From Flavobacterium panacagri (GTDB taxonomy: Bacteria; Bacteroidota; Bacteroidia; Flavobacteriales; Flavobacteriaceae), in assembly GCF_030378165.1 (NCBI RefSeq), contig NZ_CP119766.1, positions 2,914,001-2,978,000 on the forward strand: a stretch of DNA of 64,000 nucleotides. Reading direction: 5' to 3'. Positions 4,025-34,026 of the stretch are shown piece by piece. Position 1 is the first letter of the stretch; every line of letters starts with the position of its first letter. The notes under the pieces were generated by a model. That model made no database searches, was not told the origin of the DNA, and worked only from the letters and a program-made list of their open reading frames with translations. Made by a program: the position numbers and the translations under genes.

Positions 4025-4029
4025 ATAAG

Positions 4030-4037: not shown

Positions 4038-4085
4038 TAAATTACATTTAATTTTTCGGAATATACTTTGGATGAATTTTAAAAA

Positions 4086-4121
4086 TGTGCTCGAGAACAT
4101 TTTTTAGTGTGTTCGAGCACA
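4086..4121. promoter_or_regulatory. Operator pair B'+A' of the LacI-family regulator (kinase/lacI side)
   Basis: TGTGCTCGAGAACA (4086-4099) and TGTGTTCGAGCACA (4108-4121) are exact reverse complements of sites B and A at 1909-1922 and 1886-1899, in mirrored order. Centres are 22 bp apart. The right edge is 16 bp upstream of the TTG of the kinase promoter, the same distance as at susC. Confidence 0.82.
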
Positions 4122-4137
4122 TTTTTTATTGATTTAT

Positions 4138-4168
4138 TTGTTTTATCAAAATATAATCTATAGTTTCG
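4138..4168 (+). promoter_or_regulatory. Promoter of the kinase operon
   Basis: TTG (4138-4140), an 18-bp spacer and TATAGTTTCG (4159-4168). The spacer starts TTTTAT and ends AATC, as in the susC promoter. The leader to the ATG at 4258 is about 85 nt. Confidence 0.65.
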
Positions 4169-4257
4169 TACAATCAAAACCCAAAATCAAAGTAAATTTA
4201 CTAATCAAAACATACTTTAAAACACTGGTTTTTAGTATTATAATAGCTTGTTTTTAA

Positions 4258-5349: not shown

Positions 5350-5355
5350 AATACA

Positions 5356-6237: not shown

Positions 6238-6282
6238 CAAAACTTTCATATCTAAATTAGAAATTAAGGAAATTTAATGTAC

Positions 6283-6339
6283 TACTTTTGTTTTGCAAAA
6301 AAAATGCAGATATTTGCATAAATTACGCATAAGGTAATT
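6283..6339 (+). promoter_or_regulatory. Possible promoter and dyads before the sugar transporter gene
   Basis: TACTTTTG (6283-6290) fits TAnnTTTG. Downstream are TTTTGCAAAA (6291-6300, a perfect palindrome), ATGCA-6 bp-TGCAT (6304-6319) and AATTAC-7 bp-GTAATT (6321-6339). They resemble operator or leader structures and differ from the LacI-type sites, so a second regulator is possible. Confidence 0.4.
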
Positions 6340-6402
6340 AAAGCGTTGATTCTAATTTAGATTTTGAAAGAACTAAATCTATAACTAATCAACCCGAAAA
6401 TT

Positions 6403-7782
6403 ATGACAAACATTCAAAGTACATTACAATTAGAAAGAAAAAACACCCTTGTTCCAATGGTGATTTTGACTTTATTGTTTTTTATCCTAGGATTTGTAAC
6501 CTGGCTGAACGGGCCGCTAATTCCGTTTTTTGAATTGGCTTGCGAATTAACTTCTTCTCAAGCCTATTTCGTGACTTTCGCATTTTATATTGCCTATTTT
6601 GTAATGGCTATTCCATCTTCTTATATTATTGAAAAAGTGGGTTATAAGAATGGAATTTCCTTAGGATTATTGATAATTGCCGCTGGAGCATTTATGTTTT
6701 ATCCTGCGGCTGCAAGTCGAACATTTCTCTTGTTTTTATTAGCCTTATTTGTAATGGGAACTGGTCTAGCGGTTTTGCAAACGGCTTCAAATCCTTATGT
6801 TGTGGTAATCGGCCCAAGAGAAAGCGCGGCAGCAAGAATCAGCGTTTTGGGTATTGCTAATAAATTGGCAGGATTTGTGGCGCCGATTGTGTTGACTGTT
6901 TTGGTCTTGTCTAATATGCAGGACTTCACGGCTGATAAAATCGCTTTGATGGATGAGGTTTCGAAAACAAATGCTCTAAATTCTCTTGCATTGCAATTAC
7001 AAAGACCGTATCTTTATATGGGTTTGATTATTACGGTTTTAGCTTTATTGGTAAAATTTTCTCCTTTGCCGGAAATTGATTTAGATGAAGAAGGTAATGT
7101 ATCAAATCTGAATATTTTTAAACAAATAAAAAACGCATTTAGACATCCGCAGCTAGTTTTAGGAGTAATCACTTTAATGTTGTATTTGTCTGCCGAAGTG
7201 TTGGCTGGAGATTCGATCGGAGGTTTTGGAAAACAGCTTGGCGTTTATGGAGACGAAGGGAATTTTTATTTGAAGCTAACTTCGTTTACCATGTCGGCAA
7301 TGGTTGTTGGGTATATATTAGGGATTGTTTTAATACCCAGATATGTTTCGCAGGTTACGGCTTTAAAAGTGTCGGGCATACTTGGAATAATACTGGTTTT
7401 GACAATTGTTTTAATATCGCCTAAAATAATAATTGCATTTGCAGGAATTCAAAATATGCCAGTAGTTATTCTTTTAGTAGCATTGCTGGGATTAGCAAAT
7501 GCTTTGTGCTGGCCGGCGATTTGGCCAATGGCTTTGCAGGATTTAGGAGGATATACCAAGATTGGAAGTGCGATTTTGATTATGGGAATCATTGGTGGTG
7601 CCGTTTTTCCATTATTCTATGGAATGATTACAGAAAGCATCAATTCGTCAATCGTTGCAAAAAATATGCAAAACGTTTCAAGGAGTGGCAATCAGATAGC
7701 TTATTTAATGTTATTGCCTTCATATATAATGATATTGTTTTATGCTGTAAAAGGACATAAATACAGGAAATGGAAAAGTTGA
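6403..7782 (+). CDS. Sugar MFS transporter, FucP family
   Basis: This 459-residue inner-membrane protein has about 12 hydrophobic segments. It carries the FucP-family pattern near the start (FFILGFVTWLNGPLIPFFEL, residues 26-45) and conserved TASNPYVVVIGP near residue 130. The family carries sugars such as fucose, glucose/galactose or GlcNAc with protons. It lies 165 bp after the nucleotidyltransferase and 24 bp before nagB, so it probably brings in the sugar fed to these enzymes. An amino sugar is the likeliest cargo because NagB follows. Confidence 0.9.
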   Translation: MTNIQSTLQLERKNTLVPMVILTLLFFILGFVTWLNGPLIPFFELACELTSSQAYFVTFAFYIAYFVMAIPSSYIIEKVGYKNGISLGLLIIAAGAFMFYPAAASRTFLLFLLALFVMGTGLAVLQTASNPYVVVIGPRESAAARISVLGIANKLAGFVAPIVLTVLVLSNMQDFTADKIALMDEVSKTNALNSLALQLQRPYLYMGLIITVLALLVKFSPLPEIDLDEEGNVSNLNIFKQIKNAFRHPQLVLGVITLMLYLSAEVLAGDSIGGFGKQLGVYGDEGNFYLKLTSFTMSAMVVGYILGIVLIPRYVSQVTALKVSGILGIILVLTIVLISPKIIIAFAGIQNMPVVILLVALLGLANALCWPAIWPMALQDLGGYTKIGSAILIMGIIGGAVFPLFYGMITESINSSIVAKNMQNVSRSGNQIAYLMLLPSYIMILFYAVKGHKYRKWKS

Positions 7783-7806
7783 ACAAAAAATAAAAATTAA
7801 TATATC

Positions 7807-9735
7807 ATGTTAAAAAGTAAAATCGACAAAGCAACAGGTTTCGAAAAACGATTCGAAAACATCAACACAGTTGTTTTTGAAAACTCCACAGAAGCTTCAA
7901 AAGAAGTAGCGCAGGAAATTGCAGCTTTAATCAGAGAAAAACAAAAAGAAGGCAAGCCTTGTATTTTAGGTTTGGCAACAGGTTCTTCTCCAAAAGGATT
8001 GTATGCTGAATTAGTACGTCTGCATAAAGAAGAAGGTTTGAGTTTCAAAAATGTAATCAGTTTTAACTTGGATGAATATTATCCAATGGAACCAAATTCA
8101 ATCAACAGTTATGTTCGTTTTATGAAAGAACTTTTGTTTGATCATGTCGATATTTTACCTGAAAACGCTCATGTTCCAGACGGACTTTTGACAAAAGAAC
8201 AAATCGCTGATTACTGTCACGAATATGAAGCTAAAATCGAAGCTTTAGGCGGAATTGATCTTCAGGTTCTTGGAATTGGAGGTAACGGACATATTGGTTT
8301 TAACGAATCTGGTTCGCTTCAAAACTCTAAAACTCGTTTGGTGGCACTAGATCATATTACAAGAGTTGCAGCAAGTAAAGATTTTTATGGTTTAAATAAT
8401 ACACCAAGAACTGCAATTACACTTGGAGTTAAAAAAATCATGGAAGCAAAAAGAGTGATCTTATTGGCTTGGGGAGAAGGAAAAGCAAATATTGTAAAAA
8501 AATCGGTTGAGGATGAAGTTACCAATAGAGTTCCTGCGTCATTTTTGCAAGAACATAACAATGCTGTTTTTATTTTAGATAAAGAAGCTTCTTCAAAATT
8601 AACTAGAATCAATAAACCTTGGTTGGTTGAAAAAATTGTTTGGACAGACAAGTTAACTCGTAAAGCAGTTTTAGGATTAGCATTAGATCTTAAAAAACCA
8701 ATTTTAATGCTTACAGATGCAGATTATATCGAAAACGGTATGAGCGATTTGTTGGCAGATTCTGGCCCAGCTTACGATACTAATATTAAGATTTTTAATA
8801 AATTACAAAATACAATTACAGGTTGGCCAGGTGGAAAACCAAATTCTGATGATTCTAATCGTCCAGAAAGAGCAGAGCCAGCTAAAAAACGCGTATTGCT
8901 TTTCAGTCCGCATCCTGATGATGATATTATTAGTATGGGAGGAACTTTCATGCGTTTGCAAGAGCAAGGACATGAAGTGCACGTTGCTTACCAGACTTCT
9001 GGAAATATTGCGGTTGCTGATGATGAAGCACTTCGTTTTGCAAGATTCGTAATTGATTACAACGAGAAATTCGGAATCAAAAGCGAAGAAGCAGATAATA
9101 TCTACAAAAAAGCAGAAGCATTTTTGCAAAACAAAAAGAACAGCGAAATTGATATCCCAGAAGTTCGTTACATCAAAGGTTTAATCAGAAAAGGAGAGGC
9201 GAGAGCGACAAGTTATTTTGTGGGTCTTCCAGATTCTCAAATTCACTTTATGGAATTGCCTTTCTATGAAACTGGTACAATTGAGAAAAAACCAATTGGG
9301 CAAGAAGATATTCAGTTGACAGTCGATTTAATTGAAAAAATTAAACCACACCAAATTTATGCTGCTGGAGATTTAGCAGATCCGCATGGAACGCATAAAG
9401 TTTGTTTGGATGCTATTTTTGAAGCGGTAAAAGTTTTAAAACCAAAAGAATTCATGAACGACTGCTGGTTATGGTTGTACCGTGGAGCTTGGCAGGAATG
9501 GGGAATTGACGAAGTTGAAATGGCGGTTCCAATGAGTCCTGATCAGGTTTTAGCAAAACGTCATGGAATCTTCAAACACCAGTCTCAAAAAGATGGAGTG
9601 GTTTTCCAAGGAACAGATGCAAGAGAGTTCTGGCAGAGAGCAGAAGACAGAAACCGCGAAACAGCTCAATTGTACCATCAGTTAGGTTTGGCAACTTATG
9701 CGGCAATGGAAGCTTTCGTGAGATGGCATTATTAA
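7807..9735 (+). CDS. nagB: Glucosamine-6-phosphate deaminase fused to a PIG-L/LmbE deacetylase-like domain
   Basis: The 642-residue protein has two parts. Residues 30-270 are NagB: LDEYYPM with D89/E90, and GIGGNGHIGFNESGS with H162 in the catalytic place. NagB turns glucosamine 6-phosphate into fructose 6-phosphate and ammonia. Residues 360-640 are a PIG-L/LmbE domain with SPHPDDD (H369, D371, D372) and GDLADPHGTH (H527, H530), the zinc and catalytic residues of GlcNAc deacetylases. The usual NagB is about 260 residues. Both sets of active-site residues are intact, so one chain could remove acetate and ammonia from GlcNAc 6-phosphate. No nagA is seen in the window. The deacetylase role is inferred. 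Confidence 0.93.
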   Translation: MLKSKIDKATGFEKRFENINTVVFENSTEASKEVAQEIAALIREKQKEGKPCILGLATGSSPKGLYAELVRLHKEEGLSFKNVISFNLDEYYPMEPNSINSYVRFMKELLFDHVDILPENAHVPDGLLTKEQIADYCHEYEAKIEALGGIDLQVLGIGGNGHIGFNESGSLQNSKTRLVALDHITRVAASKDFYGLNNTPRTAITLGVKKIMEAKRVILLAWGEGKANIVKKSVEDEVTNRVPASFLQEHNNAVFILDKEASSKLTRINKPWLVEKIVWTDKLTRKAVLGLALDLKKPILMLTDADYIENGMSDLLADSGPAYDTNIKIFNKLQNTITGWPGGKPNSDDSNRPERAEPAKKRVLLFSPHPDDDIISMGGTFMRLQEQGHEVHVAYQTSGNIAVADDEALRFARFVIDYNEKFGIKSEEADNIYKKAEAFLQNKKNSEIDIPEVRYIKGLIRKGEARATSYFVGLPDSQIHFMELPFYETGTIEKKPIGQEDIQLTVDLIEKIKPHQIYAAGDLADPHGTHKVCLDAIFEAVKVLKPKEFMNDCWLWLYRGAWQEWGIDEVEMAVPMSPDQVLAKRHGIFKHQSQKDGVVFQGTDAREFWQRAEDRNRETAQLYHQLGLATYAAMEAFVRWHY

Positions 9736-10072
9736 AAAGATGCTAAGATGCTAAGGTTTTGAGATTCTAAGTTTTTTTTCTTAGTATTTTAGAAGTAAGT
9801 AATTAGTTGAATAATATTTTTGAAGCAGGAAAGGAGAACGAACTATGTTCTTTTTTCTTGCTTCTTTTTTTAAGATACTAAGGTTCTAAGATTCTGAGGT
9901 TCTAAGTTTTTCAGTCTATGTCTGCATTTTTGTTGTAAACTGTAAACTGTGACCGAGACTGAAAACTATTTTTTAATCTGTGGCAAAAGAAAAATAAGTA
10001 ATAGCTTTGCATAACGAAGCAAATGCAGAAGTCTATTTTCTATATTCTAGCTTCTTTCCTCTCTGAAAAAAA
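9736..10072. repeat. Gap with degenerate 8-bp tandem repeats
   Basis: This 337-bp gap has no gene. It holds AAGATGCT-type units at about 9741-9775 and again at 9873-9912 (AAGATACT, AAGGTTCT, AAGATTCT, GAGGTTCT, AAGTTTTT). A GTAAACTGTAAACTGTGACC stretch lies at 9935-9954. The same 8-bp family recurs near 22981, 23080 and 25380. Confidence 0.75.
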
Positions 10073-10303
10073 ATGGATCAAGACAAAAAACAACTCATAA
10101 AATTAGCCCACACCAAAATGCCATTCGGTAAATACGAAGGAAAATATTTAATTGATTTACCTGAATATTACGTGGTTTGGTATCATAATAAAGGTTTTCC
10201 AAAAGGAGAGCTTGGTCAGCAGTTGCAATTGATTTATGAATTGAAATTGAATGGCTTGGAAGAGTTGATTCGAAATATCAAAAAACAATATCCAAAGCCT
10301 TAA
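10073..10303 (+). CDS. DUF3820 family protein
   Basis: This small 76-residue soluble protein matches the DUF3820 pattern: KMPFGKYEGKYLIDLPEYYV (residues 13-32), then WYHNKGFPKGELGQQLQLIY. The family is widespread and its function is not established. It stands alone, 222 bp before pyrG, with no clear promoter. The ATG is the only reasonable start. Confidence 0.85.
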   Translation: MDQDKKQLIKLAHTKMPFGKYEGKYLIDLPEYYVVWYHNKGFPKGELGQQLQLIYELKLNGLEELIRNIKKQYPKP

Positions 10304-10454
10304 AAAAGTATTTTTAAATTGTTAAGGTTATGGATTATTAATTGCGAATTTTTAGCTAAAATCATAAAATTCTTTCGTTTTATAAAGTCAAAACTTAAAA
10401 CCTTCATTTAAATTAAAAGAACTCTAAAATTTTAAAAATTATCTCATTCTGGAA

Positions 10455-12139
<1,685 letters not shown>

Positions 12140-12217
12140 TAATTCATTCTAAGAGGTGTAACTTTTAAATCAAACTAATTACTAATAACCTCAAACGAAT
12201 AACTTTTTTAAAAAATA

Positions 12218-14140
12218 ATGGAAGAAAAAAAATTAGACCTCAATTCGATCATTGGTTTTGTATTGATATTTGGAATCTTGATTTGGATTTTTTATCAAAA
12301 TCAACCTTCTGAAAAAGAAATTGCTGCTGAAAAAGCCAAGAAAGAATTAGTAGCTAAACAAGAAGCACAAGCAAAAGCTGATAAAACTAAAACAGCATCA
12401 CTACCAGTTGTTGCCGTAACTCCTGGAGATACAGTACAATTGGCTCAGTTGCAAAAAACTTTAGGAGGATTTGCTTATTCTGCAACGCTTCCTTCTGCAA
12501 AAGAAACTTTTACTACAATTGAAAACGAAAAGCTTAAGCTTAAAATCGCTAACAAAGGTGGTTACATTGTTGAAGCTACTTTAAAAGAATTTGAAAAGTT
12601 TAAAAAAGGTTCAGGTCAGTTAGTTGAATTAATTAAAAACAACAACTCCAACTTAAATTTACAGCTTCTTACTACAGATAATAGAACATTAAATTCTAAA
12701 GATTTGTATTTCGAACCAACATTAGAAAAAATTGGTGCAGACCAAGTTTTATCTATGCGTTTAAAAGCTGGAGCAAATGAGTTTTTGGAGTATAAATATA
12801 TCTTGAAGCCAAATGATTACTTAGTTGGTTTTGATATTCGTTCTCAAGGTTTAAATAAAGTTTTAAATTCTGCTAAACCATTAAATTTAGAATGGGATTT
12901 AAAAACATACAGAAACGAGAAAAGTGTTTCTTACGAAAATCGTTTTGCTGAAATTAACTATAAATATGGAGATGCAAAATACAGTTATGTAAATAGTCAT
13001 GGACAAGGAAAAGAAGAAACTCCTGAAAAACTAAGTTACGTAGCATTCAAACAGCATTTCTTTGCCACTATTTTATCTACAGAAAAACCATTTGAGACTT
13101 CAAAATTGCAGTCTGATGATTTAGTTAAAGATGAAAAGATAGATACTGTTTTTACTAAACAGTTTAGAGCCAATTTGCCTTTAGCGTTTTCAAACGGAGA
13201 GATCGATTACAAAATGAATTTGTATATGGGTCCTGTAGATTATAAAACATTAAAAGCTTACGATAAAAATTTCGATAAGATCATTCCTTTAGGATGGGGA
13301 ATTTTTGGATGGATTAACAAATTAATCTTCATTCCATTATTCGGTTTCTTAAGTTCAACTATTGGATTATCATTAGGAATTGCGATTATCATTTTTACGA
13401 TAATTATCAAATTGGCTATGTCGCCAATTACGTATAAATCATTCTTGTCTCAGGCTAAAATGAAAGTTTTAAGACCTGATATTGCAGAGTTGGGAGAAAA
13501 ATTCAAAAAAGACCCAATGAAGAAACAACAGGAAACAATGAAACTGTACAACAAAGCAGGAGTAAACCCAATGGCAGGATGTATCCCGGCATTGATTCAG
13601 CTTCCGTTTATGTATGCTTCGTTCCAGTTTTTCCCTGCAGCGTTTGAATTAAGACAAAAAAGTTTCCTTTGGGCAGACGATTTATCCTCTTTTGACTCTG
13701 TCGTAAAATTACCTTTTAATATTCCATTGTACGGAGATCATATCAGTTTGTTCCCAATTCTGGCAGCAATTGCAATTTTCTTCTACATGAAGATGACTTC
13801 AGGAGATCAGCAAATGGCAGCGCCTCAGCAAGAAGGTATGCCGGATATGGCAAAAATGATGAAAATCATGATTTATGTTTCGCCATTAATGATGTTAATT
13901 TTCTTCAACAGTTACGGTGCTGGTTTGAGTTTGTATAACTTTATTTCAAACTTAATTACAATCGGAATTATGTTTGTTATTAAGAATTATATTGTAGACA
14001 GTGAAAAAATTCACGCTCAGATTCAAGAAAACAAACAAAGAGAGCCAAAGAAACCAAGTAAGTTCCAACAGCGTCTTCAAGAAGTAATGGAACAGCAGGA
14101 AGCTGCAAAAGCTCAAGCTCAGAACAAGAAAAAGAAATAA
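12218..14140 (+). CDS. yidC: Membrane protein insertase YidC
   Basis: YidC inserts and folds inner-membrane proteins, with or without SecYEG. The 640-residue protein has an N-terminal anchor (IIGFVLIFGILIWIFYQ, about residues 10-26), a charged linker and a large periplasmic beta domain (about 95-370). The conserved C-terminal membrane core has TYKSFLSQAKMKVLRPDI, NPMAGCIPALIQLPFMYASF and late helices. The tail is Gln/Lys-rich and ends in KKKK, as in many YidC proteins. A clear terminator follows at 14151-14180. Confidence 0.97.
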   Translation: MEEKKLDLNSIIGFVLIFGILIWIFYQNQPSEKEIAAEKAKKELVAKQEAQAKADKTKTASLPVVAVTPGDTVQLAQLQKTLGGFAYSATLPSAKETFTTIENEKLKLKIANKGGYIVEATLKEFEKFKKGSGQLVELIKNNNSNLNLQLLTTDNRTLNSKDLYFEPTLEKIGADQVLSMRLKAGANEFLEYKYILKPNDYLVGFDIRSQGLNKVLNSAKPLNLEWDLKTYRNEKSVSYENRFAEINYKYGDAKYSYVNSHGQGKEETPEKLSYVAFKQHFFATILSTEKPFETSKLQSDDLVKDEKIDTVFTKQFRANLPLAFSNGEIDYKMNLYMGPVDYKTLKAYDKNFDKIIPLGWGIFGWINKLIFIPLFGFLSSTIGLSLGIAIIIFTIIIKLAMSPITYKSFLSQAKMKVLRPDIAELGEKFKKDPMKKQQETMKLYNKAGVNPMAGCIPALIQLPFMYASFQFFPAAFELRQKSFLWADDLSSFDSVVKLPFNIPLYGDHISLFPILAAIAIFFYMKMTSGDQQMAAPQQEGMPDMAKMMKIMIYVSPLMMLIFFNSYGAGLSLYNFISNLITIGIMFVIKNYIVDSEKIHAQIQENKQREPKKPSKFQQRLQEVMEQQEAAKAQAQNKKKK

Positions 14141-14150
14141 TTCTAAATAA

Positions 14151-14180
14151 AAAAAATCTCGATTTATCGGGATTTTTTTT
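14151..14180 (+). terminator. Terminator after yidC
   Basis: AAATCTCGA pairs with TCGGGATTT (one G-T pair) around a short TTTA loop, followed by a run of nine T. Confidence 0.8.
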
Positions 14181-14230
14181 TGCCAATATAATTTATAATT
14201 CAGATTTTCGTTAAGCTTAAAAAATATACT

Positions 14231-14956
14231 ATGATCTCTAAAAAAATCATTCTCGGATTACTGTTTCTAAATGCATTGGTTTTAAATGCACAAACAGATA
14301 TTAATAAAGTTGATGCTGCCGGAAAAAAAGACGGACTTTGGAAAGGTACTTATGCCGAATCTAAGCGTCCGCGTTATGAAGGAACTTTTAATCACGGAAA
14401 AGAAACAGGTCTTTTTAAATTTTTTGATGATACTAAAAAAGGAGATGTAATCGCAACAAGAGATTTTAGTACCAATGACGGGAGCTCGTATACTATTTTT
14501 TATGACCAAAATAAAAACATAGTGAGCGAAGGAAAAGAAATTGGAAAATCTCGTGACGGAGAATGGAAATATTATCATAAAGCTTCAAAGGTTTTAATGA
14601 CTTCTGAAAATTACAAAAACGGAAAGCTGGAAGGTTTGAAAACTATTTATTATCCCAATTCAAAAGTGGCAGAAGAGATGATGTATAAAAATGGTTTGAA
14701 AGAAGGAGCTTATAAAAAATTAGGGCAAGACGGAACACTTTTAGAAGAATCTACTTTTAAAAATAATGAATACAATGGTGATGCTGTTTTTTATGAATCA
14801 GATGCTTCAGTGGCATCTAAGGGGAAGTTTGTAAACGGTAAAAAAGCAGGAATCTGGCAGTTTTATCAAAAAGGGAAATTGATAAAAGAAGTAAATATGA
14901 GTGATCCTAAAAATACTAATAAAGCTTCTGAGAAAGGGCCAGCTCCTAAAAAATAA
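14231..14956 (+). CDS. YwqK/MORN-like repeat protein, exported
   Basis: The 241-residue protein starts with a signal peptide (MISKKIILGLLFLNALVLNA, cleaved before Q21). It then has repeated MORN-like units such as GLWKGTYAES, GKETGLFKFFDD, GLKEGAYKKLGQDG and NGKKAGIWQFYQKG. Databases often call such proteins YwqK-family antitoxins, but there is no toxin gene here and the protein is exported, so that name should not be taken as function. The role is unknown. A strong terminator follows. Confidence 0.8.
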   Translation: MISKKIILGLLFLNALVLNAQTDINKVDAAGKKDGLWKGTYAESKRPRYEGTFNHGKETGLFKFFDDTKKGDVIATRDFSTNDGSSYTIFYDQNKNIVSEGKEIGKSRDGEWKYYHKASKVLMTSENYKNGKLEGLKTIYYPNSKVAEEMMYKNGLKEGAYKKLGQDGTLLEESTFKNNEYNGDAVFYESDASVASKGKFVNGKKAGIWQFYQKGKLIKEVNMSDPKNTNKASEKGPAPKK

Positions 14957-14976
14957 TAGATGCAATAATTCTACCG

Positions 14977-15011
14977 AAAGGACTTAAATAATTTTTTTAA
15001 GTCCTTTTTTT
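14977..15011 (+). terminator. Terminator after the YwqK-like gene
   Basis: AAAGGACTTAA pairs with TTAAGTCCTTT and ends in seven T. Confidence 0.85.
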
Positions 15012-15087
15012 GTGCTATCGTTTTTTTTTTTGATTTTGTTTTTATGTAAGTAAAATATAGTAAGTTTATAATCTAAATCAAACCTAT

Positions 15088-16140
15088 ATGAAAGTTAAAA
15101 GTCTACTATTTTTGTTCTTAATGTTTACAGGTATTTATGCACAAAATAAAGATGAAGCAGATAAACTTGTAGAATCTGGTATAGTTCTTCATGATAAAGG
15201 TGATTATGAAGGAGCAATTAAAAATTATAATAAAGCTTTAGAACTAGATAAAGACAATTTGTTTGCTTTAATTGAAAAATCTTTAACATTGAATTCTTTA
15301 AATAAATTTGATGAAGTTATAGCTATTTCAAAACATGCTATTGTAACTCATCCCGAAAGCGGACTTCAGAATGTTTACGTTAATTATGCTAATGCGTTAG
15401 ATCATTTAAAGAAAAATGAAGAAGCATTAAAAATATACGAAGAAGGAATTCAGAGATTTCCAAATTATTATCAATTGTATTTTAATAAGGGGATTTGTTA
15501 TGCGAATTCTAATAATAGTTCAGAAGCTCTTTCCTGCTTTCAAAAATCTTTGAGTATAAATCCAAAACATGCTGGTTCATTAAATGCTATCGGGATATTA
15601 GAGACAAATTCTAATAGAATTCCTGCTGTTATGGCCTTTTCAAGATTCTTAATTGTCGAACCGCAAACAAGCAGATCAAAGAAGAACTTTGAGAATTTAA
15701 AAAGCTTAATGATGAAAGGCGTGACTCAAACAGGTGAGAAAGCAGTAACAATTAATATCGATGCATCAACACTTCCAGATTCTACAGGAGTTAAAAAAGA
15801 AAATGATTTTTCTGCTGCAGATTTGATACTTTCTATGAGCGCAGGTTTAGACTTTGATAAAAAGAATGTAAAAAAAACAGATGCAGAGAATTTTATACGA
15901 AAGTTTGAGGTTATTTGTGCCTCATTAGAAGAGACAAAGAATGATAATACAGGCTTTTATTGGAACTTTTTAGCGCCATATTTCATCGAAATGAAAAATA
16001 AAAAGCTCATTGAGCCTTTTGCGTATATCGCGTATGTGGATTCAGGCGAGGAGGATGTTGCTAAATGGCATAAAAAGAATCAAGATAAATTGGATAAATT
16101 TTACGAGTGGTCCAAAAACTATAAATGGACTACTAATTAG
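15088..16140 (+). CDS. TPR-repeat protein, exported
   Basis: The 350-residue protein has a signal peptide (MKVKSLLFLFLMFTGIYA-Q). About five tetratricopeptide repeats span residues 27-200, for example GDYEGAIKNYNKALELDKDN, NEEALKIYEEGIQRFPNYYQ and SSEALSCFQKSLSINPKHAG. The C-terminal 130 residues are not recognised. TPR proteins act as protein-binding scaffolds, here in the periplasm. The next gene (DUF4956) follows after 39 bp on the same strand. The function is unknown. Confidence 0.85.
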   Translation: MKVKSLLFLFLMFTGIYAQNKDEADKLVESGIVLHDKGDYEGAIKNYNKALELDKDNLFALIEKSLTLNSLNKFDEVIAISKHAIVTHPESGLQNVYVNYANALDHLKKNEEALKIYEEGIQRFPNYYQLYFNKGICYANSNNSSEALSCFQKSLSINPKHAGSLNAIGILETNSNRIPAVMAFSRFLIVEPQTSRSKKNFENLKSLMMKGVTQTGEKAVTINIDASTLPDSTGVKKENDFSAADLILSMSAGLDFDKKNVKKTDAENFIRKFEVICASLEETKNDNTGFYWNFLAPYFIEMKNKKLIEPFAYIAYVDSGEEDVAKWHKKNQDKLDKFYEWSKNYKWTTN

Positions 16141-26073: not shown

Positions 26074-26568
26074 TTAAGGATTTAGTATTTTTTTAAGTTT
26101 CCCTTTAATTCTGTTCATTTTCACACGTGCATTCACTTCACTGATTCCGAGGGTTTCAGCTATTTCTTGATAATCTTTGTCTTCTAAATACATAAAAACT
26201 AATGCTTTTTCGATGTCATTGAGCTGGTAAACGGCTTTGTACATCAATTTTATCTGTTCTTCTTCTTCATAGTTGTAATCAACATCTCTAACAAAATGCT
26301 GATGACTTTCATAATCTACGGTAGATATTGTTCTTTTGGTTTTTCGGTACAATGTAATCGCAGTATTTAAGGCTACGCGATACGTCCAAGTAGAAAATTT
26401 ACTGTCTCCTCTAAATTTTGGATAAGCTTTCCAGAGCTGAATGGTTATTTCCTGAAACAAATCTTTGTGTGCGTCTTCGCTATCAGTATATAATCTACAA
26501 ATCTTGTGGATTATATTCTGATTTGCCTGCAATTGCGCAACAAATGACTGTTCTAGATTTTCGCTCAT
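26074..26568 (-). CDS. ECF-type RNA polymerase sigma factor
   Basis: The 164-residue sigma-70 protein has region 2 (DLFQEITIQLWKAYPKFRGD, then KFSTWTYRVALNTAITLYRK) and region 4 (YQEIAETLGISEVNARVKMN), joined by a short linker as in group 4 sigma factors. Region 3 is absent. It is the first gene of a two-gene minus-strand operon with the membrane protein. It is divergent, with a 155-bp gap, from the plugless barrel and A2M-like genes, which makes those its most obvious candidate targets. No promoter repeat proving this is visible. Confidence 0.93.
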   Translation of the reverse strand: MSENLEQSFVAQLQANQNIIHKICRLYTDSEDAHKDLFQEITIQLWKAYPKFRGDSKFSTWTYRVALNTAITLYRKTKRTISTVDYESHQHFVRDVDYNYEEEEQIKLMYKAVYQLNDIEKALVFMYLEDKDYQEIAETLGISEVNARVKMNRIKGKLKKILNP

Positions 26569-26723: not shown

Positions 26724-29489
26724 ATGAAAAAACTATTACTCTTACTTCTTATAACCACAGCCAGTTTTTCGCAAAAAATCTATAAAGGTAATGTAAGTGA
26801 ACAAGGAACTCCCGTTCCAGGCGTATCTGTATGTGTAGTAAATACTTCGAGATGTACATTTACAGATTTTGATGGAAATTATTCTATAGAAGTGAAATAT
26901 GGTGATAAACTCCGTATTAGCTATCTTGGAATGAAAACACAAATTATAACAATTGGGGCTAATATGAAGTTGGAAAGTGATAATAATGTTGCGCCAATAA
27001 TAAGTGATGATTATTTAGAGAATTTAAAAAAGCCAAAAGATTCTATAAAAGCAACTCGATCTTCGGGCGATTATTATTTTGATCTTACTGATTACCTCTA
27101 CAATCAGACTTTAATGAAAATCAATCGTGATAATTCGGGGGTTTATAATGCTAAAACATATCATGAATATTCGAAAGCAGCATTTCAGGTCAATCAGGAG
27201 TTTGTTTATTCCATGCCAATGCGTCTTCCAAAATATCAGAATCAATTTGCACAAGGCAGAAGCTTAAATGGCGATTTGACTTACCAATCACCTCAAACCA
27301 ATGAAATTTTCAGCTGGGGTCCAGATGTCAGCACTTTACAATATTCTGCCAATCCTTCCGAGTATTATCCGCAGGGTGATATTATCAATAGAAATGCTAC
27401 AAGCGGAAATCCATTACAGCTTTTTAATTCAAATAACTTTTTTCAGAATACGCAGGACAATAAAGTATCTTTTAGCGCACAAATTGAAAGTCCAAAGAGA
27501 AATACTTTTAAGATTGATTTTGGATATAAGACTGGAAATACTGTAATTCCGACGAGTCGTAATAATGAAATTACTACTTCTTTAAAGTATTCCAGAACGC
27601 TTTCTTACAATAGTACAATGGATGCGATTTTGTCATATAATGATTTTGAAAACAATTTCTCCAATTCAAATTTTGGAATAAATAAAGTCATTTTTGGGAA
27701 TGCTGTTACTCCAATTCATTTTGATAATCATTTTGCTTCAACCTTATCAAATGGATTACAGAGAAGTTATGCTGCAAACGAGAACAATCCGTATTATTTG
27801 ATAGAGAATAATTTAGATCAAAATAAAAGTAAAACAATTTCCTTCAATTTTAATCATATTTATTCCTATGATCATTATTCGAATACACTTAACACTAGCT
27901 TTCAATCGTCAGAAATTAAAAATAGAAGCGGTCAGGGATTTTATCTTGCGGCAATTAATACACCAAATTTTGACAAGAGATCTGAGGGATTTAGAAGCTT
28001 TTCTGTTTCGGATGTTCTTAGACGCAATTTTGGATATATGAAATTTATAGAATCTAAAATCGATTTTAGATTACAGCAAAGAGATTTAGATCGTACTTTT
28101 TACTCTAGTTTTATAGTACCATCGGATATTCCTAATAATGGATCAATTCATGATAAAATCGATGTTTTGCAAAAAAGATTTGAAATTTTGTACAACATAA
28201 ATGGTGCATATTATTTTAGTAATGCTTTAGGATCGAATGAAGAGTTTATACTGAAAGCAGGTTCAAATTTAAATTATTCCTCTACTGTAAATAATAATCT
28301 TTTGTTCAACTATTCAGGTGCTGCCGAAATGAAAAGATTGTTTAATACTTCTTTGAATTTTACAGCGAGTCACACTTTCACACAGACAGAACCATCACTA
28401 CAAAACAATAATCTGAATTTTAATTCTTTACAATATCAAGTAAGCCAATTTAAGCAGCTGAGAAATAATTTGGAGCTCATAACACCAAAGAATGCAATTC
28501 CAACAAAAGAGAATATTACAAATTTAACATTTTCATATAGAGCTGCTTATTACTGGAATTTTTATGTAGAATATTATTATAAAAATGTTCAAGATTTGTA
28601 TGCGCCAGTTTCTAATCTTAATTCTTTTACTTGGTCTCCAGATGTAAATTACAAACAAAATGGACTTGAATTTGAAATTGAGAAACAGACAGAACGAAGC
28701 AGAGATTTTAATTATGGTTTCAATTTGAATTTTACGTATTACAAAAACAAAGTAACAAGCTTAAATAACAATCAAACCAGAATCCCATTTGCAGGTTTTG
28801 CAGATGTCAATAAAAACTATATTGTAGGACAGCCACTTGGAGTTCTTGTTGGAAGTGGGTATTTAAGAGATCAAAATCAAAATGTAATTGTTGATAATGA
28901 TGGTTTTCCGATGGTAGATTCGCAGCAAAAGATTTTAGGAGACCCGAATCCAGATTTTGTGGTTGGCTTTTTTAATTCGTTTCGTTACAAAGATTTTAGT
29001 CTGAATCTTTCGTTCGACTGGAGTAAAGGCGGAGAAATCTGGAACGGAACGGAACAGACTTTAAATTATTACGGAAAATCGCAATTAACAGGAAATCAAA
29101 GAGCTGTTACAAATTATGTTTTTAATGGAGTTACACCATCTGGCGATGTAAATACCAAAACAGTTTCATTTTACGACAGCAATCTTCCCGTGGAACAAAA
29201 CCGCTGGGTGCGATATGGTACTTCTGGTGTAGCCGAAGATGCTGTTCAAGATGCCAGTTATTTTAGGCTCAATTCCATCAATTTAGCGTATACAAGTGAT
29301 TATGGCATTTTTAGAAATAAACTAATGTTTACCATTTCTGTTTTTATGAATAATGTTTTTGTTGTTGCCAAAAGTAAAACGGCATTTAGTAACAATGCGA
29401 TGTTTGGTTCTATAGATACTAGCGGTTTAGAATATTTCAACTCGCCAATGATGAAAAGTTTCGGTTCTTCTTTAACTATAAAATTTTAA
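26724..29489 (+). CDS. SusC-type outer membrane barrel lacking the plug domain
   Basis: The 921-residue protein has a signal peptide (MKKLLLLLLITTASFS-Q) and a carboxypeptidase-like regulatory domain (residues 17-76: KIYKGNVSEQGTPVPGVSV, FTDFDGNYSI). Around residue 155 it passes into SusC barrel sequence (MPMRLPKYQNQFAQG at 164, then EIFSWGPD). The barrel is complete, with late SusC landmarks ILGDPNPDFVVGFFNSF and DASYFRLNSINLAYTS and a C-terminal Phe. The 120-residue TonB plug that should lie between has been replaced by about 80 unrelated residues. The next gene, one base away, carries a plug. The frame is intact, so this is not a pseudogene. Confidence 0.88.
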   Translation: MKKLLLLLLITTASFSQKIYKGNVSEQGTPVPGVSVCVVNTSRCTFTDFDGNYSIEVKYGDKLRISYLGMKTQIITIGANMKLESDNNVAPIISDDYLENLKKPKDSIKATRSSGDYYFDLTDYLYNQTLMKINRDNSGVYNAKTYHEYSKAAFQVNQEFVYSMPMRLPKYQNQFAQGRSLNGDLTYQSPQTNEIFSWGPDVSTLQYSANPSEYYPQGDIINRNATSGNPLQLFNSNNFFQNTQDNKVSFSAQIESPKRNTFKIDFGYKTGNTVIPTSRNNEITTSLKYSRTLSYNSTMDAILSYNDFENNFSNSNFGINKVIFGNAVTPIHFDNHFASTLSNGLQRSYAANENNPYYLIENNLDQNKSKTISFNFNHIYSYDHYSNTLNTSFQSSEIKNRSGQGFYLAAINTPNFDKRSEGFRSFSVSDVLRRNFGYMKFIESKIDFRLQQRDLDRTFYSSFIVPSDIPNNGSIHDKIDVLQKRFEILYNINGAYYFSNALGSNEEFILKAGSNLNYSSTVNNNLLFNYSGAAEMKRLFNTSLNFTASHTFTQTEPSLQNNNLNFNSLQYQVSQFKQLRNNLELITPKNAIPTKENITNLTFSYRAAYYWNFYVEYYYKNVQDLYAPVSNLNSFTWSPDVNYKQNGLEFEIEKQTERSRDFNYGFNLNFTYYKNKVTSLNNNQTRIPFAGFADVNKNYIVGQPLGVLVGSGYLRDQNQNVIVDNDGFPMVDSQQKILGDPNPDFVVGFFNSFRYKDFSLNLSFDWSKGGEIWNGTEQTLNYYGKSQLTGNQRAVTNYVFNGVTPSGDVNTKTVSFYDSNLPVEQNRWVRYGTSGVAEDAVQDASYFRLNSINLAYTSDYGIFRNKLMFTISVFMNNVFVVAKSKTAFSNNAMFGSIDTSGLEYFNSPMMKSFGSSLTIKF

Positions 29490-29490
29490 G

Positions 29491-32400
29491 ATGATGAAAA
29501 ATATACTCTCAATATTGTTTTTGCTGTTATTTACAACTCTTACAGCTCAAAACATAGAAGCCGACTGGAACTCTGTTTATAAAAATTCTAATACAGAAAA
29601 AGTATATGTGCAGTTAAATAATGTACTCTACAATCTTGGTGAAACTGTATTTTTTAAAGCATTTGTTACCGAAAACGACAATAGACCTAGTACATTAAGT
29701 GCCTATTTATATGTTGATATTTTTCAAGGCAATAAAAAAGTAATTAGCCAGAATTATGAAATAGAAAATGGCAGTGCCGTATGTTCCTATAAAATTCCAC
29801 ATGATGCCGCTGCTGGTTTGTACAAAATATTAGCGTATACTAAAATTCAAAACCAGTTAGCTGAAAATATTTTTGAGAAAACCTTTTTTGTTCAAAAAGT
29901 AGTCTCTCCAAGAATTTTGATGACTCTGGATTTTAAAAAGAAAGCTTACGGAAAAGGTGAAACTTGTGAGGCCGATTTTGTACTTAAAAATCTGGAAAAT
30001 GAGCCAATTCGAAATTATGAATTTCGATACGATGTTTTTATTGCAGGAAAAAAAATCGATTCATTGAAAGGAAAAACGGATGATTTAGGGAAAGCTGTGG
30101 TTCAATTTAAATTACCGGAAAATTTAGATTCTAATGATGGAATTCTAAATGTAATGCTTGATTATGATAATTTTAAAGAATCGGTAACACGTTCGATCCC
30201 AATTAATTTAAACTTTGTTGATTTACAATTTTTAGCAGAAAGTGGGAATTTGGTTTTAAATGAACCATCATCGTTATGTTTTATTGCTAAAAATGAATTT
30301 GGACTTCCAATGGATGTTGCGGGATTTATTGAAGATGAAAGCGGAAATAAAATCACAGATTTTAAAAGTATTCATGATGGAATGGGAAATGTAATCCTAA
30401 AAACAGAAGGAACTAAAAAATATTTTGCTGTTGTAACTTCTCCTTTTAAATCGAATGAAAAAATTACGCTGCCAGTCGCAGAAGAAAATGTATTTACAAT
30501 AAATGCTAAAAAGAATGCAGAAACAGTTTCGCTGCATATTTACGCTCCATTGAAAATTGAAGGTCAAGTTTTGGTTAGAAATCTTGCTCAAATTTGTAAA
30601 ACAATTAATCTGAATCTAAAAAAAGGATGGAATACTATTGAAGTCAGTACAAAAGATTTTCCTGTTGGAATTCATTCTTTTTCTTTATTGATAAAAGAGA
30701 ATGTTGTCGCCGAAAGATTGGTTTTCCTAAACTATCAAGATGGGCTAAAAATAGAAATTAAAACCGATAAAGAAACGTATTTGCCTAGAGAAAAAGTAAA
30801 TGTTTCAATTGTGACAAAAGACAAAAATAATGCGCCTATTCCGTCAAGTTTAGCTGTTTCTGTAGTCGATTCAAAATTACTCACTTATATTGATGATAAA
30901 CAGGATAATATTTTGTCTTGGCTGTTTCTTGGATTTGAATTAAAAGGCAAAATACATGAACCAAGATTTTATTTTGATGACAATAAAGCTCAGGAAATAA
31001 AAGAAGAAGCAATTGATTTGCTGTTGAATACACATGGCTGGAGAAAATACAATCAAGAGAATCTTCAAAATTTAATTTCAGAAGTAAAAAACAGCATCCT
31101 GCCAGAACAAAACAAAGGGATAGCAGGTTTTGTTACCAATCACAAAAAAAGAGGCGTTTCGAAAAAAGTACTTCTTTTTTCAGATACTGGTAAAGTCTTC
31201 GAAACAAAAAGTAATTCTGGTGGTTATTTTGTGTTTAATAAAGTTTCTTTTTCAAGCTTTGCTTATTTGGTCGTTGAAGGAAAAAGCAATAAACAATATG
31301 TGATAACAAATTCATATACAAATAGTAATGAATTTTTGGCAATGAAAGATACGCTTAAAAATAAAATACCTTTAGAAGTAAGTTTTAGGCCGGCCGAAAC
31401 AAAAGAAACCATAACAGAAAGTGGTCAAATTAGAGGAACTCCAATCGTATTGTCATCAGATTCGGCTAATTTATCAGAAGTAGTAGTTGTAGGTTATGGA
31501 AGTACTAACAAAAAAATGATTTCTGGTGCTATTGTAAAAATAAACGCTGCAGATATCACTAATTCTTTAAGCGGAAGAGCAGCAGGAATTCAAATAACAG
31601 AATCTTCTGGACAGCCGGGATCTGCAGACAAAGTTAGAATTAGGGGATTAAGTTCAGTTTATGGAAGCAGAGCGGGAGGGCAACCTTTAATTGTTGTAGA
31701 TGGAATTCCATACGTTAATAATGAAAATTCCTCTGTTTTTGGCAATTTATCGGTAAATTCAATAGAATCAGTTACAATTCTGAAAGATGCTTCGGCAACA
31801 GCGATTTATGGATCTTCTGGTAATTCAGGCGTAATTTTAATTACGACGAAAGGTAGAATGTTTCAAGGAAATATTCTTTTAGGAAAAAAACACAAATACT
31901 CTTTTCAGCAGATAAATAAAACTTCGGCTAAAGTGATAAGTGTAGCAGAAAGATTTTATGTGCCAAAATACCAATCTACAATCGTTGAAGAAAAAACAGA
32001 TTTTAGAACTTGTATTTACTGGAATTCAATTATTCAGACAGATAAAAACGGTAGGGCCAATTTTGAATTTTATACTTCAGATGATAATACTTCTTTTAAA
32101 ATTCTAGCAGAAGGAACATCTTATAAAGGTGATTTAGGCAAATCGGAAGCTGTTTTTGCTGTAAAAGAGTTAATTCAAACCGATGTAAAAGTGCCACTTT
32201 ATGCTTCGCAGGAAGATGTAATTTTAGTACCGCTTTGGCTGAAAAATAATTCAGACAAGAACTTAAACTTAACGTATAAAGTTAATTTTTATGAACAAAA
32301 GGATTTAGTTGAACAAACCTCTTCTGTGGGACTAAAACCAAATGAAACAAAAAGTATTACTATCAAATTAATTGCGTCTAAAATTGGAAGAAATATACCA

Positions 32401-34026
32401 TTGGGAATCGCCTTAACTGGAGACGATTATAAAATGACTGTTAGAAAAACAATTGATGTCTATTCAAAGGGATTCCCTGTAAATATTGATATTTCTGGGG
32501 TAAAATCTCAAACAGCAGCGTTTGAAATTCAAGATGCATTTCCAGGATCAATTACCAGTGATTTTAAATTGTTTTATAATCCATTTTCCGCCATTTTCAG
32601 TTCTCTTGAAGGAATGATGCGTGAACCTTACGGCTGTTTTGAGCAGGTTTCTTCCTCAAATTATCCTAATATTATGGCGATGCAATTGCTTAAGTTTAAA
32701 AACATGTCACCAGAATTTAAGGAACGTGCTTTGAAGTATTTAGAAGTTGGATATAAAAAGCTTAAGAATTACGAGTCCAAAGGTGGTGGTTTTGAATGGT
32801 ATGGAGGCAATCCAGGCAATGAAGCATTGACTGCCTATGGGTTATTGCAATTTCATGAAATGAAAGAGTTTGTCAATGTAGATCAGAAAATGATTGACAG
32901 AACTATAGAATGGTTGAATTCCAGAAAAGATGATAAAGGCGGATTTAGTCAAAATCCGGGTAGATATGGTTTCTCAGGAATAAAAAGTACTGTGAATAAT
33001 GCCTATATCGTTTATGTTTTATCTGAAATTGGAAAAATGGATATCGAAAAGCAGTATCAAACGGCTTTGGAAGAAGCTTTAAAAAGCAAAGATTTATACA
33101 GAATGGAACTAGCTGCTTTAGCCGCATTTAATTTGAATAAAATTCCAGAATACAAATCGCTTATGAGTTTGATAAAAGCCAAAATGGATAAACAAGTTTT
33201 TAATCATTTAGAAGCAGAACAAACCGTTATCAATAGTTACGGCAAATCGATGAATATAGAAATTGCTTCCTTGTATGCCATTGCTTTATTGAAAGAAAAA
33301 GAAATTACAGAGGAAGTCACAAAAACTTTAAATTTTATTCAATCTTCCAGAACATCTTATGGATTTGGTTCAACGCAAGCGACTGCTTTGGCATTAAAAG
33401 CAATTACAGAATTTAATAAACTTTATATTAATACAGTAGCGGTTAAACAAGCGGTAATGAGTTTTAATGATGAGACAATGGATTTATCTCAAAAGGATAA
33501 AAGTGGAAATTTAGCTTTAAATGATTTAAAAATAAAAGAAGGGAAAAATAAGTTTGATATTCAAATTCAGGAAGATAATATAATTCCTTATACTTTGCAG
33601 ATTCAGTACAATACGTACACACCAATTAATTCTAAAGAATGTAAATTGTCTTTAAAAACAAACGTTTTACAAAACAAAGTAAAAATAAGCGAAACGCTTA
33701 GAGTTCAAATTGAAGTTGAAAATAAAACCGCAAAAGAAGTTTCAAATCCAATTGCAAGAATAGGAATTCCGGGTGGACTGACTCCAGAACCTTGGCAACT
33801 TAAAGAATTAGTAGAAAAAAATGCTGTGGATTATTATGAAATCTTTGGCAACGAATTGGTGTTTTATTTTAGAAAATTGAACGCTAGAGAAACCCGTAAA
33901 ATTAATGTTGATTTTAAAGCTATTGTTCCAGGAGATTATAAAGGAATTGCTTCGTCAGCTTATTTATATTACGAAAAGGAACACAAAAATTGGAATAAAG
34001 GTTTAGAAATTGAGGTTTTACCTTAA
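29491..34026 (+). CDS. Alpha-2-macroglobulin-like thioester protein with an embedded TonB-receptor plug
   Basis: The 1511-residue exported protein (signal peptide ending FTTLTA-Q, no lipobox) has macroglobulin domains in about residues 20-540 and a carboxypeptidase-like domain from 543 (GIAGFVTNHKKRGVSKKVLL). A full SusC-type plug spans 661-789 (LSEVVVVGYGS, LKDASATAIYGSSGNSGVIL, ITTKGR). The A2M core starts at 839 (FRTCIYWNSIIQTDKNGRAN). The thioester motif C1049-F-E-Q1052 lies in the alpha-helical thioester domain, and a receptor-binding-like end follows. A2M proteins trap proteases through the Cys-Gln thioester. The plug sits between the N-terminal MG part and the A2M core, roughly where animal A2M has its bait region. 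The partner barrel is encoded immediately upstream. Confidence 0.9.
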   Translation: MMKNILSILFLLLFTTLTAQNIEADWNSVYKNSNTEKVYVQLNNVLYNLGETVFFKAFVTENDNRPSTLSAYLYVDIFQGNKKVISQNYEIENGSAVCSYKIPHDAAAGLYKILAYTKIQNQLAENIFEKTFFVQKVVSPRILMTLDFKKKAYGKGETCEADFVLKNLENEPIRNYEFRYDVFIAGKKIDSLKGKTDDLGKAVVQFKLPENLDSNDGILNVMLDYDNFKESVTRSIPINLNFVDLQFLAESGNLVLNEPSSLCFIAKNEFGLPMDVAGFIEDESGNKITDFKSIHDGMGNVILKTEGTKKYFAVVTSPFKSNEKITLPVAEENVFTINAKKNAETVSLHIYAPLKIEGQVLVRNLAQICKTINLNLKKGWNTIEVSTKDFPVGIHSFSLLIKENVVAERLVFLNYQDGLKIEIKTDKETYLPREKVNVSIVTKDKNNAPIPSSLAVSVVDSKLLTYIDDKQDNILSWLFLGFELKGKIHEPRFYFDDNKAQEIKEEAIDLLLNTHGWRKYNQENLQNLISEVKNSILPEQNKGIAGFVTNHKKRGVSKKVLLFSDTGKVFETKSNSGGYFVFNKVSFSSFAYLVVEGKSNKQYVITNSYTNSNEFLAMKDTLKNKIPLEVSFRPAETKETITESGQIRGTPIVLSSDSANLSEVVVVGYGSTNKKMISGAIVKINAADITNSLSGRAAGIQITESSGQPGSADKVRIRGLSSVYGSRAGGQPLIVVDGIPYVNNENSSVFGNLSVNSIESVTILKDASATAIYGSSGNSGVILITTKGRMFQGNILLGKKHKYSFQQINKTSAKVISVAERFYVPKYQSTIVEEKTDFRTCIYWNSIIQTDKNGRANFEFYTSDDNTSFKILAEGTSYKGDLGKSEAVFAVKELIQTDVKVPLYASQEDVILVPLWLKNNSDKNLNLTYKVNFYEQKDLVEQTSSVGLKPNETKSITIKLIASKIGRNIPLGIALTGDDYKMTVRKTIDVYSKGFPVNIDISGVKSQTAAFEIQDAFPGSITSDFKLFYNPFSAIFSSLEGMMREPYGCFEQVSSSNYPNIMAMQLLKFKNMSPEFKERALKYLEVGYKKLKNYESKGGGFEWYGGNPGNEALTAYGLLQFHEMKEFVNVDQKMIDRTIEWLNSRKDDKGGFSQNPGRYGFSGIKSTVNNAYIVYVLSEIGKMDIEKQYQTALEEALKSKDLYRMELAALAAFNLNKIPEYKSLMSLIKAKMDKQVFNHLEAEQTVINSYGKSMNIEIASLYAIALLKEKEITEEVTKTLNFIQSSRTSYGFGSTQATALALKAITEFNKLYINTVAVKQAVMSFNDETMDLSQKDKSGNLALNDLKIKEGKNKFDIQIQEDNIIPYTLQIQYNTYTPINSKECKLSLKTNVLQNKVKISETLRVQIEVENKTAKEVSNPIARIGIPGGLTPEPWQLKELVEKNAVDYYEIFGNELVFYFRKLNARETRKINVDFKAIVPGDYKGIASSAYLYYEKEHKNWNKGLEIEVLP

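Follow-up and report, generated by a model that had tools for sequence, protein, structure and literature searches.

Whether a TonB-dependent receptor can keep its barrel and its plug on two different proteins is the question raised by a pair of adjacent genes in Flavobacterium panacagri. To our knowledge, plug and barrel are part of one chain in the known TonB-dependent receptors. The pair lies at positions 26724 to 34026 of a stretch of 64,000 nucleotides (assembly GCF_030378165.1, contig NZ_CP119766.1, positions 2,914,001 to 2,978,000 of the forward strand; hereafter, the window), in a genome assembled as one contig of 5.98 Mb, and encodes a SusC-type outer-membrane barrel and an alpha-2-macroglobulin (A2M)-like protein with a thioester. 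A first-pass annotation made from the letters of this DNA had claimed that the plug is missing from the former protein and present on the latter. The two open reading frames (ORFs) are both open, lie on the same strand and are separated by one base. Their features, with the evidence for each, are:

26724..29489, + strand: plugless SusC-type outer-membrane barrel gene, 921 amino acids (open ORF, Pfam, NCBIfam, AlphaFold2)
26784..26969, + strand: SusC N-terminal extension PF13715, residues 21-82 (Pfam)
26970..27110, + strand: linker, residues 83-129, partly disordered, where ordinary SusC has its TonB box and plug (predicted local distance difference test, pLDDT; hhalign)
27111..29486, + strand: barrel, residues 130-921 (AlphaFold2, VIA-align)
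29491..34026, + strand: thioester A2M-like protein with SusC plug, 1511 amino acids (open ORF, Pfam, predicted structure)
29599..29862, + strand: MG2 domain, residues 37-124 (Pfam)
31357..31527, + strand: disordered tether ahead of the plug, residues 623-679, containing a TonB-box-like motif (model pLDDT < 50)
31474..31494, + strand: TonB-box-like motif SEVVVVG, residues 662-668 (motif pattern, alignment)
31456..31866, + strand: complete SusC-type plug, residues 656-792 by hidden Markov model (HMM) and 681-781 by Pfam (HMM, Pfam, profile comparison)
31762..31851, + strand: SusC/RagA signature TIGR04057, residues 758-787 (NCBIfam)
31993..32004, + strand: alpha'NT segment KTDF, residues 835-838 (alignment to human A2M R732-F735)
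32017..32271, + strand: A2M domain PF00207, residues 843-927 (Pfam)
32602..33414, + strand: thioester domain (TED), residues 1038-1308 (Pfam, E 1.8e-24)
32635..32646, + strand: thioester motif CFEQ, C1049-Q1052 (sequence, alignment)
33751..33987, + strand: A2M receptor-binding (C-terminal macroglobulin, MG) domain, residues 1421-1499 (Pfam)

The 921-residue protein is a SusC-type receptor with an N-terminal domain and a full barrel and without a plug, and on this point Pfam, NCBIfam, hhalign and AlphaFold2 agree with what had been read from the sequence. Pfam detected the N-terminal extension (CarbopepD_reg_2, PF13715) at residues 21-82 with an E value of 1.2e-10, along with three weaker matches over the same region, and no match to the plug domain PF07715 even at E <= 1. 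The best stretch for the SusC model TIGR04056 of NCBIfam was residues 612-921, with 137 bits, under the cut-off of 368, and no plug remnant was detected by hhalign when residues 76-170 of the plugless family were compared with SusC plugs (probability 0.25%, E 0.24). The AlphaFold2 model of this protein is confident (mean pLDDT 89.9, predicted template modelling score 0.81); at the expected site of the plug, residues 82-94 and 101-109 have a pLDDT below 50, and the block mean is 40-50 over residues 81-110 and higher beyond. Residues 151-921 superpose on 171-984 of the SusC protein BT_2264, and residues 150-921 on 210-1016 of BT1763 (VIA-align), the alignment beginning at about residue 150, just past the point where the plug ends in SusC. 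The closest named relative is a barrel of Flavobacterium quisquiliarum with 96% identity. Although the window barrel has an unmistakable N-terminal domain, the HMM detected this domain in just 17 of 39 plugless barrels.

In the case of the A2M-like protein, the complete SusC plug and the intact CFEQ motif reported earlier, one base away from the barrel gene, were borne out by Pfam (PF07715 at residues 681-781, E 1.5e-13), by TIGR04057 and by profile-profile comparison of the A2M-family plug with SusC plugs (probability 100%, E 1.3e-50), and the domain boundaries drawn at that time are right to within a few residues. The motif CFEQ at 1049-1052 is identical in 79 of 79 aligned rows. When the two families are compared with the same solved structure, the barrel-family profile spans residues 165-984 and the A2M-family profile residues 7-173 of PDB chain 5fq6_B (BT_2264), so that, at the level of profiles, the two proteins match complementary parts of one SusC chain. 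The TonB-box-like motif SEVVVVG, too, sits on the A2M protein rather than on the barrel; the Ton box of BT1763 is given as DEVVVTG in the excerpted text of PMC7782687. Alignment to human A2M places the plug where A2M proteins have their bait region, a position taken up in the window protein by the plug and a disordered linker. The alpha'NT segment KTDF follows the bait position directly and is joined to the plug by about 40 residues; in human A2M, retraction of this conserved segment arms the thioester, according to the part of PMC9352918 available. MG domains flank the thioester core, the modelled part of the protein (residues 330-1511) resembles native A2M, and the family profile is closer to human A2M (5.4e-56) than to ECAM/YfhM (7e-18). 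The N-terminus is signal-peptide-like by eye, no lipobox was found by pattern, and Pfam found no type 9 secretion system (T9SS) sorting domain. No SusC plug appears among the structure matches listed for the A2M model, a list that is filled by the A2M body and says nothing on the fold of the plug.

Plug loss in the barrel goes strictly with a plug on the neighbouring A2M. A genome collection of 84,980 species was searched with an alignment of plugless barrels, which yielded at least 595 matching stretches, 540 of them confirmed, and the best 80 loci were retained; this locus sample was thus picked by similarity to plugless barrels and is not random. The window and the loci from earlier draws were added to it, which gave 98 barrel ORFs above the cut-off. 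A plug- and TED-bearing A2M lies directly downstream on the same strand of 38 of the 39 plugless barrels, the lone exception (L055) being located at a contig edge, and of none of the 59 plug-bearing barrels, 58 of which have at least 300 bases of downstream sequence. Damage or truncation affects three of the 38 paired loci (L053 is broken, L058 has a short barrel ORF, and the contig start cuts L059); among the 35 of 39 plugless barrels that are sound, meaning neither cut, broken nor short, the A2M is present in all 35. In L053, from Chryseobacterium sp. Leaf201, the plugless barrel gene (4434-6900) is split into three ORFs and the A2M gene is still open. The pairing also emerged when the search started out from the A2M, with the two best candidates scored (E <= 1e-150) in each of 296 genomes belonging to the same order as the window: all 17 A2Ms found carry a plug, and all 17 have a barrel match 6 to 166 bases upstream. 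Barrel matches in these same genomes (E <= 1e-120) numbered 18, and the eighteenth (G088) has its own plug and no A2M match. In a draw of 395 genomes from the phylum, which has four genomes in common with the order set and is therefore not fully independent of it, the four A2Ms matched across the plug are all paired with a barrel; a fifth large A2M (G133, L007) lacks the plug and is not accompanied by a barrel within 18 kb. Among the protein-database matches listed, the Pfam plug label is found on 116 of 120 A2M relatives and missing from 72 of 120 barrel relatives. The expectation that the gene pair would be conserved across genomes has therefore held from both sides (38 of 39 plugless barrels, 17 of 17 A2Ms).

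We consider it very probable that the A2M plug docks into the barrel in trans, and likely, if somewhat less so, that the pair constitutes a TonB-dependent receptor split over two genes, in which the plug acts in trans and the A2M is moored below. Such a device would begin with a SusC-type barrel standing in the outer membrane without a plug, and with an A2M protein exported to the periplasm, whose plug would insert into the barrel and close the pore, mooring the A2M ring and the thioester domain beneath it. In structures of TonB-dependent receptors, both ends of the plug are on the periplasmic side. Because both ends of the docked plug would face the periplasm, the TonB-box-like motif just ahead of it would be within reach of TonB, which could pull at it. 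If the plug were pulled, ejected or cut as something came into the barrel, its removal would release alpha'NT and arm the thioester, given that the plug is found at the bait position, only about 40 residues from that segment, and the armed thioester would then form a covalent bond with whatever protein is coming in, most likely a protease or another attacking protein. A trap of this type, triggered by TonB, by a ligand or by a protease, with exit or cutting of the plug mechanically coupled to the thioester, is a tentative suggestion that we would not call probable; a defensive role, which has been proposed for bacterial A2Ms in general (PMC4498604, in the portion available), appears slightly more doubtful than the trigger. 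As for precedents, closed states of BT1763 without density for the plug are described in the accessible part of PMC7782687, and PMC12611786, again in the part accessible, describes separate proteins that, in Flavobacterium, occupy the pore of BamA and keep the T9SS channel shut.

How the two halves came to be divided was addressed with quick trees that rely on a single support measure, the Shimodaira-Hasegawa-like approximate likelihood ratio test (SH-aLRT), and on midpoint rooting. A branch with full SH-aLRT support sets the plugless barrels apart from all other rows (36 rows in one tree; 45 of 45 in a larger one), and the group spans Flavobacteriaceae, Weeksellaceae, Chitinophagaceae, Roseivirga, Dawidia and Dysgonomonas. 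Homologues of the barrel with a plug of their own, which had been named beforehand as evidence that would speak against a split, are absent from inside this group. Grouping with the plugless barrels at 100% SH-aLRT are 25 of 26 fusion rows, a pair of identical ones included; these represent the nearest sampled relatives and carry VIT, vWA, plug and barrel in a single chain of 1444 to 1722 residues; an N-terminal extension is shown by 22 of the 25 database entries among these grouped fusions. This fusion family was found via locus L034 (5256-10199; P0241 and relatives), where the VIT and vWA domains lie between the N-terminal extension and the plug. Because the nearest barrels are such fusions, the split receptor is probably derived from, or co-ancestral with, a receptor that already bore a large domain ahead of its plug. 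The plug tree is poorly resolved, and with 62 of its 124 inner branches without support it does not settle the source of the A2M plug. The earlier statement that the plug has moved from the receptor to its partner consequently holds in that the plug is off the receptor and on the neighbour, and needs refining as to origin.

Plugs were also found away from plugless barrels. In the genome of the window itself, locus L003 (G000:C1:446000-462000) contains two tandem giant A2M-like proteins of 2183 and 2114 amino acids (ORFs 2725-9276 and 9538-15882) with a plug ahead of the A2M domain, the first complete, with a domain resembling the N-terminal extension and a Ton-box-like motif, and the second degenerate; no barrel ORF was found by HMM in this 16-kb stretch. 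Loci L008 to L023 hold 17 MG-domain proteins of about 810-910 amino acids, here called MG-plug proteins, with a mostly eroded plug, just the initial portion of the A2M domain and no TED, and no plugless barrel in the stretches fetched around them; in L013, an ordinary plug-bearing receptor lies about 2 kb away. The TonB-box-like motif, according to a pattern of our own, is present in 37 of the 38 A2Ms beside a plugless barrel, and in 12 of 15 sigma-linked plug proteins (described below), 47 of 59 ordinary receptors, 2 of 17 MG-plug proteins and 1 of 2 giant A2Ms; with a stricter pattern, the respective figures are 35 of 38, 7 of 15, 39 of 59, 0 of 17 and 0 of 2. Plugs that neighbour a plugless barrel span 135 residues in the median, against 93 for those of the MG-plug proteins. 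A VIT-vWA-plug make-up without barrel occurs in 5 of 120 proteins listed (P0296, P0303, P0310, P0311, P0312), and a TonB C-terminal domain (PF03544) was seen, with no full plug, on the A2M relative P0120 and on the VIT-vWA proteins P0341, P0342, P0345 and P0353. These five VIT-vWA-plug proteins may point to a second split system; the seven regions fetched, of 11 matches in the 395 genomes, contained no plug or barrel.

Several of these observations weigh against a plug docked in trans and a trap beneath it. All the plugless barrels belong to a single lineage, which means that their 38 pairings cannot be counted as separate events. Since the two giant A2Ms (from the same genome) and the 17 MG-plug proteins have plugs and no adjoining plugless barrel, a plug on an A2M is by itself no proof of docking, and in L032 the A2M next to a plugless barrel has a degenerate plug. 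When modelled alone, the plug has low confidence (block pLDDT about 40-70). In human A2M and in ECAM it is cleavage that does the arming, and arming by a pull is not shown in the sources consulted. Finally, co-evolution of plug and barrel was analysed by mirror trees on 34 pairs, excluding L055 (no partner), L032 (for its plug) and L053, L058 and L059 (barrels below the length cut-off). A first pass gave 0.293 for barrel and plug given the TED and 0.155 for plug and TED given the barrel, with 0 of 2000 permutations as high; a sliding-window control, however, found no plug-specific signal (partial correlation 0.254, equalled or exceeded by 12 of 23 non-plug A2M windows), and for this reason the first-pass signal was not counted.

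Some of the same observations would fit a plug that serves as a periplasmic module, for example one that binds TonB, and never enters the barrel, which would be shut by loops belonging to the barrel itself or by some other protein. Plug fragments on proteins with no adjoining plugless barrel, the TonB C-terminal domains on one A2M relative and several VIT-vWA proteins, and the uninformative mirror-tree result all favor this alternative, which we nevertheless regard as quite improbable, as plug loss and plug gain are strictly paired, the plugs beside a plugless barrel are longer and better conserved than those of the MG-plug proteins, and there are relatives in which plug and barrel are covalently joined. 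Marginally less probable still is a role in secretion or display, put forward by the first-pass annotation, where the barrel would be a channel for the A2M and the plug a stop or an anchor. The genes for pore and passenger are indeed adjacent, and Oar, a TonB-dependent receptor, is needed for PopC secretion in Myxococcus (PMC6434023, in the part available), but the A2M has no T9SS sorting domain, its modelled residues 330-1511 look like native A2M, and, with both ends of a docked plug on the periplasmic side in the structures known to us, the large flanking domains would remain inside, an argument that disfavors this earlier proposal. That a single receptor gene, decayed by a frameshift or an insertion, has been mistaken for a pair has a negligible probability. 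Nothing of this kind was found in the window; L053 and L058, with its short barrel ORF, illustrate what real damage looks like, and the 35 sound plugless barrels all with an A2M, the single deep group and the invariant CFEQ rule such an artefact out.

The rivals that remain concern what a split receptor would be used for, and one of them draws on the neighbouring genes, beginning in the window with this feature:

26074..26568, - strand: divergent extracytoplasmic function (ECF) sigma factor, 155 base pairs (bp) from the barrel start (neighbour analysis)

A close homologue of this ECF sigma gene lies divergently within 200 bp of the pair in seven of eight Flavobacterium-type loci, the window included, and may be functionally linked to it. 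In 15 of 15 Weeksellaceae-type loci (L006, L035, L036, L039-L044, L046, L048, L049, L053, L054 and L066), the barrel gene is preceded, immediately or with one gene in between, by a gene for a second protein with a plug, and all 14 upstream plug proteins examined have a hydrophobic segment suggesting one transmembrane (TM) helix and an ECF sigma gene ahead. Six were scanned with Pfam: three also have vWA-type domains, two of these with YfbK, and no anti-sigma domain was found in the six. One of them, a plug and vWA protein of L006 (2891-5203), ends, unlike the other five, in a T9SS sorting domain (PF18962). Three Weeksellaceae-type loci also hold a separate vWA/YfbK protein, lipoprotein-like by eye. 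The upstream plug protein could act as an anti-sigma factor, against which the sorting tail of L006 speaks. Within a locus, A2M plug and upstream plug are slightly more identical than in random pairings (permutation p 0.016, 15 loci), a result driven chiefly by L036 and L041 that ignores kinship, and which hints weakly, from sequence identity, at gene conversion between the two. ECF sigma linkage is also present in L005, where the gene order is ECF sigma gene, a 144-residue predicted TM protein, a signal-peptide-like protein of 156 amino acids made of two half-plug repeats (5623-6093) and, just downstream of it, the plugless barrel; for most of the remaining lineages, neither the linkage nor the second plug was seen. 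The present analysis has added two points to the earlier annotation, namely the position of the A2M plug at the bait region beside alpha'NT and this second plug gene of Chryseobacterium-type loci.

These neighbours suggest cell-surface signalling, with plug proteins competing for one barrel, so that when the A2M plug leaves, the sigma-linked plug replaces it and the ECF sigma factor is freed. The upstream plug proteins with their TM-like segments and sigma genes, the divergent sigma factor of Flavobacterium-type loci and the within-locus plug identity are in its favor; we nonetheless hold it unlikely as the main function, because no anti-sigma domain was found in the six proteins scanned, the sorting tail of L006 is unfit for an inner-membrane regulator, no second plug was seen ahead of the barrel in the majority of the other lineages, the permutation p value is weak, and the thioester would be left unexplained. 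Equally unlikely, in our opinion, is a nutritional role, in which the docked pair would import proteins or peptides and the A2M covalently capture polypeptides for periplasmic peptidases. By homology only, it is suggested by the top relatives of the barrel, which are SusC-type importers including BT2261-2264 and RagAB, whose structures contained oligopeptide ligands (PMC7782687, in the part available). Against it, no SusD-like match was obtained among nine neighbour proteins scanned, with no systematic SusD profile search run over all loci, no neighbouring peptidase is recurrent (there is a single M14 peptidase, in L029), and a single-use covalent trap seems expensive. A combined scheme for the split receptor, in which a plug closing the pore in trans stands in for the bait region of the A2M, its removal by TonB, ligand or protease arms the covalent thioester, and the second, sigma-linked plug protein of Chryseobacterium then swaps into the emptied barrel and reports the event, is conceivable and, taken as a whole, rather doubtful.

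Both halves of the pair come from known families, and what is new, relative to the literature searched, is their division over two genes and the placement of the plug; searches of that literature turned up no account of an A2M that bears a SusC plug, preprints and most subscription papers being outside its scope. The pair shares with SusC/RagA transporters (BT_2264, BT1763, RagA) the barrel fold, the N-terminal extension, the SusC plug and a TonB-box-like motif, here distributed over two genes, and differs from them in that the plug belongs to another polypeptide with a thioester protein and in the lack of SusD among the neighbours scanned. With ECAM/YfhM, SaA2M and human A2M it has in common the MG domains, PF00207, a TED with CxEQ, the C-terminal MG domain and a native-like predicted fold (330-1511), but a SusC plug and tether stand in place of the bait region. 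The VIT-vWA-plug-barrel fusions (Dysgonomonas, Bacteroides, Rhodocytophaga), whose barrels group with the plugless ones, likewise have a large domain ahead of the plug; in them, however, plug and barrel are still one chain, and VIT-vWA takes the place of A2M. As in FecA-FecR-type signalling, receptor genes adjoin an ECF sigma factor, here in two lineages, although the putative regulator in Chryseobacterium-type loci carries a plug and, in the six proteins scanned, no anti-sigma domain. The Plug of the T9SS translocon is a separate periplasmic protein. According to the available part of PMC12611786, BamP sits inside the BamA pore of the Flavobacterium BAM complex, and the T9SS channel opens when porV and plug are both deleted; in both systems a separate protein fills an outer-membrane barrel, as we infer for the trans plug from genes and architecture. 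Neither protein, however, is the plug of a TonB-dependent receptor, and no A2M or thioester appears in that same part of the text, where "macroglobulin" occurs 0 times.

As long as plug and barrel form a single polypeptide, it is difficult to study what becomes of the plug in the course of transport, and a natural trans plug, if our interpretation is true, would permit tagging, removal or swapping of the plug apart from the barrel. Bacterial A2Ms would likewise acquire a definite location, below a pore, and potentially a means of activation other than proteolysis. A non-proteolytic trigger is foreseen as an engineering prospect in work on human A2M (PMC9352918, in the part available); should the trigger reading be true, a force-driven, non-proteolytic trigger in the A2M family would make this a device of a new kind. 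More generally, the VIT-vWA fusions and the sigma-linked plug proteins suggest that plugs are a docking module that Bacteroidota envelopes can reuse. A last observation concerns the distribution of the pair: one copy, on a contig labelled as a Limnohabitans metagenome-assembled genome (L050), falls inside the Flavobacterium-type group and has the same sigma neighbour, and its placement under that name is probably a binning error.

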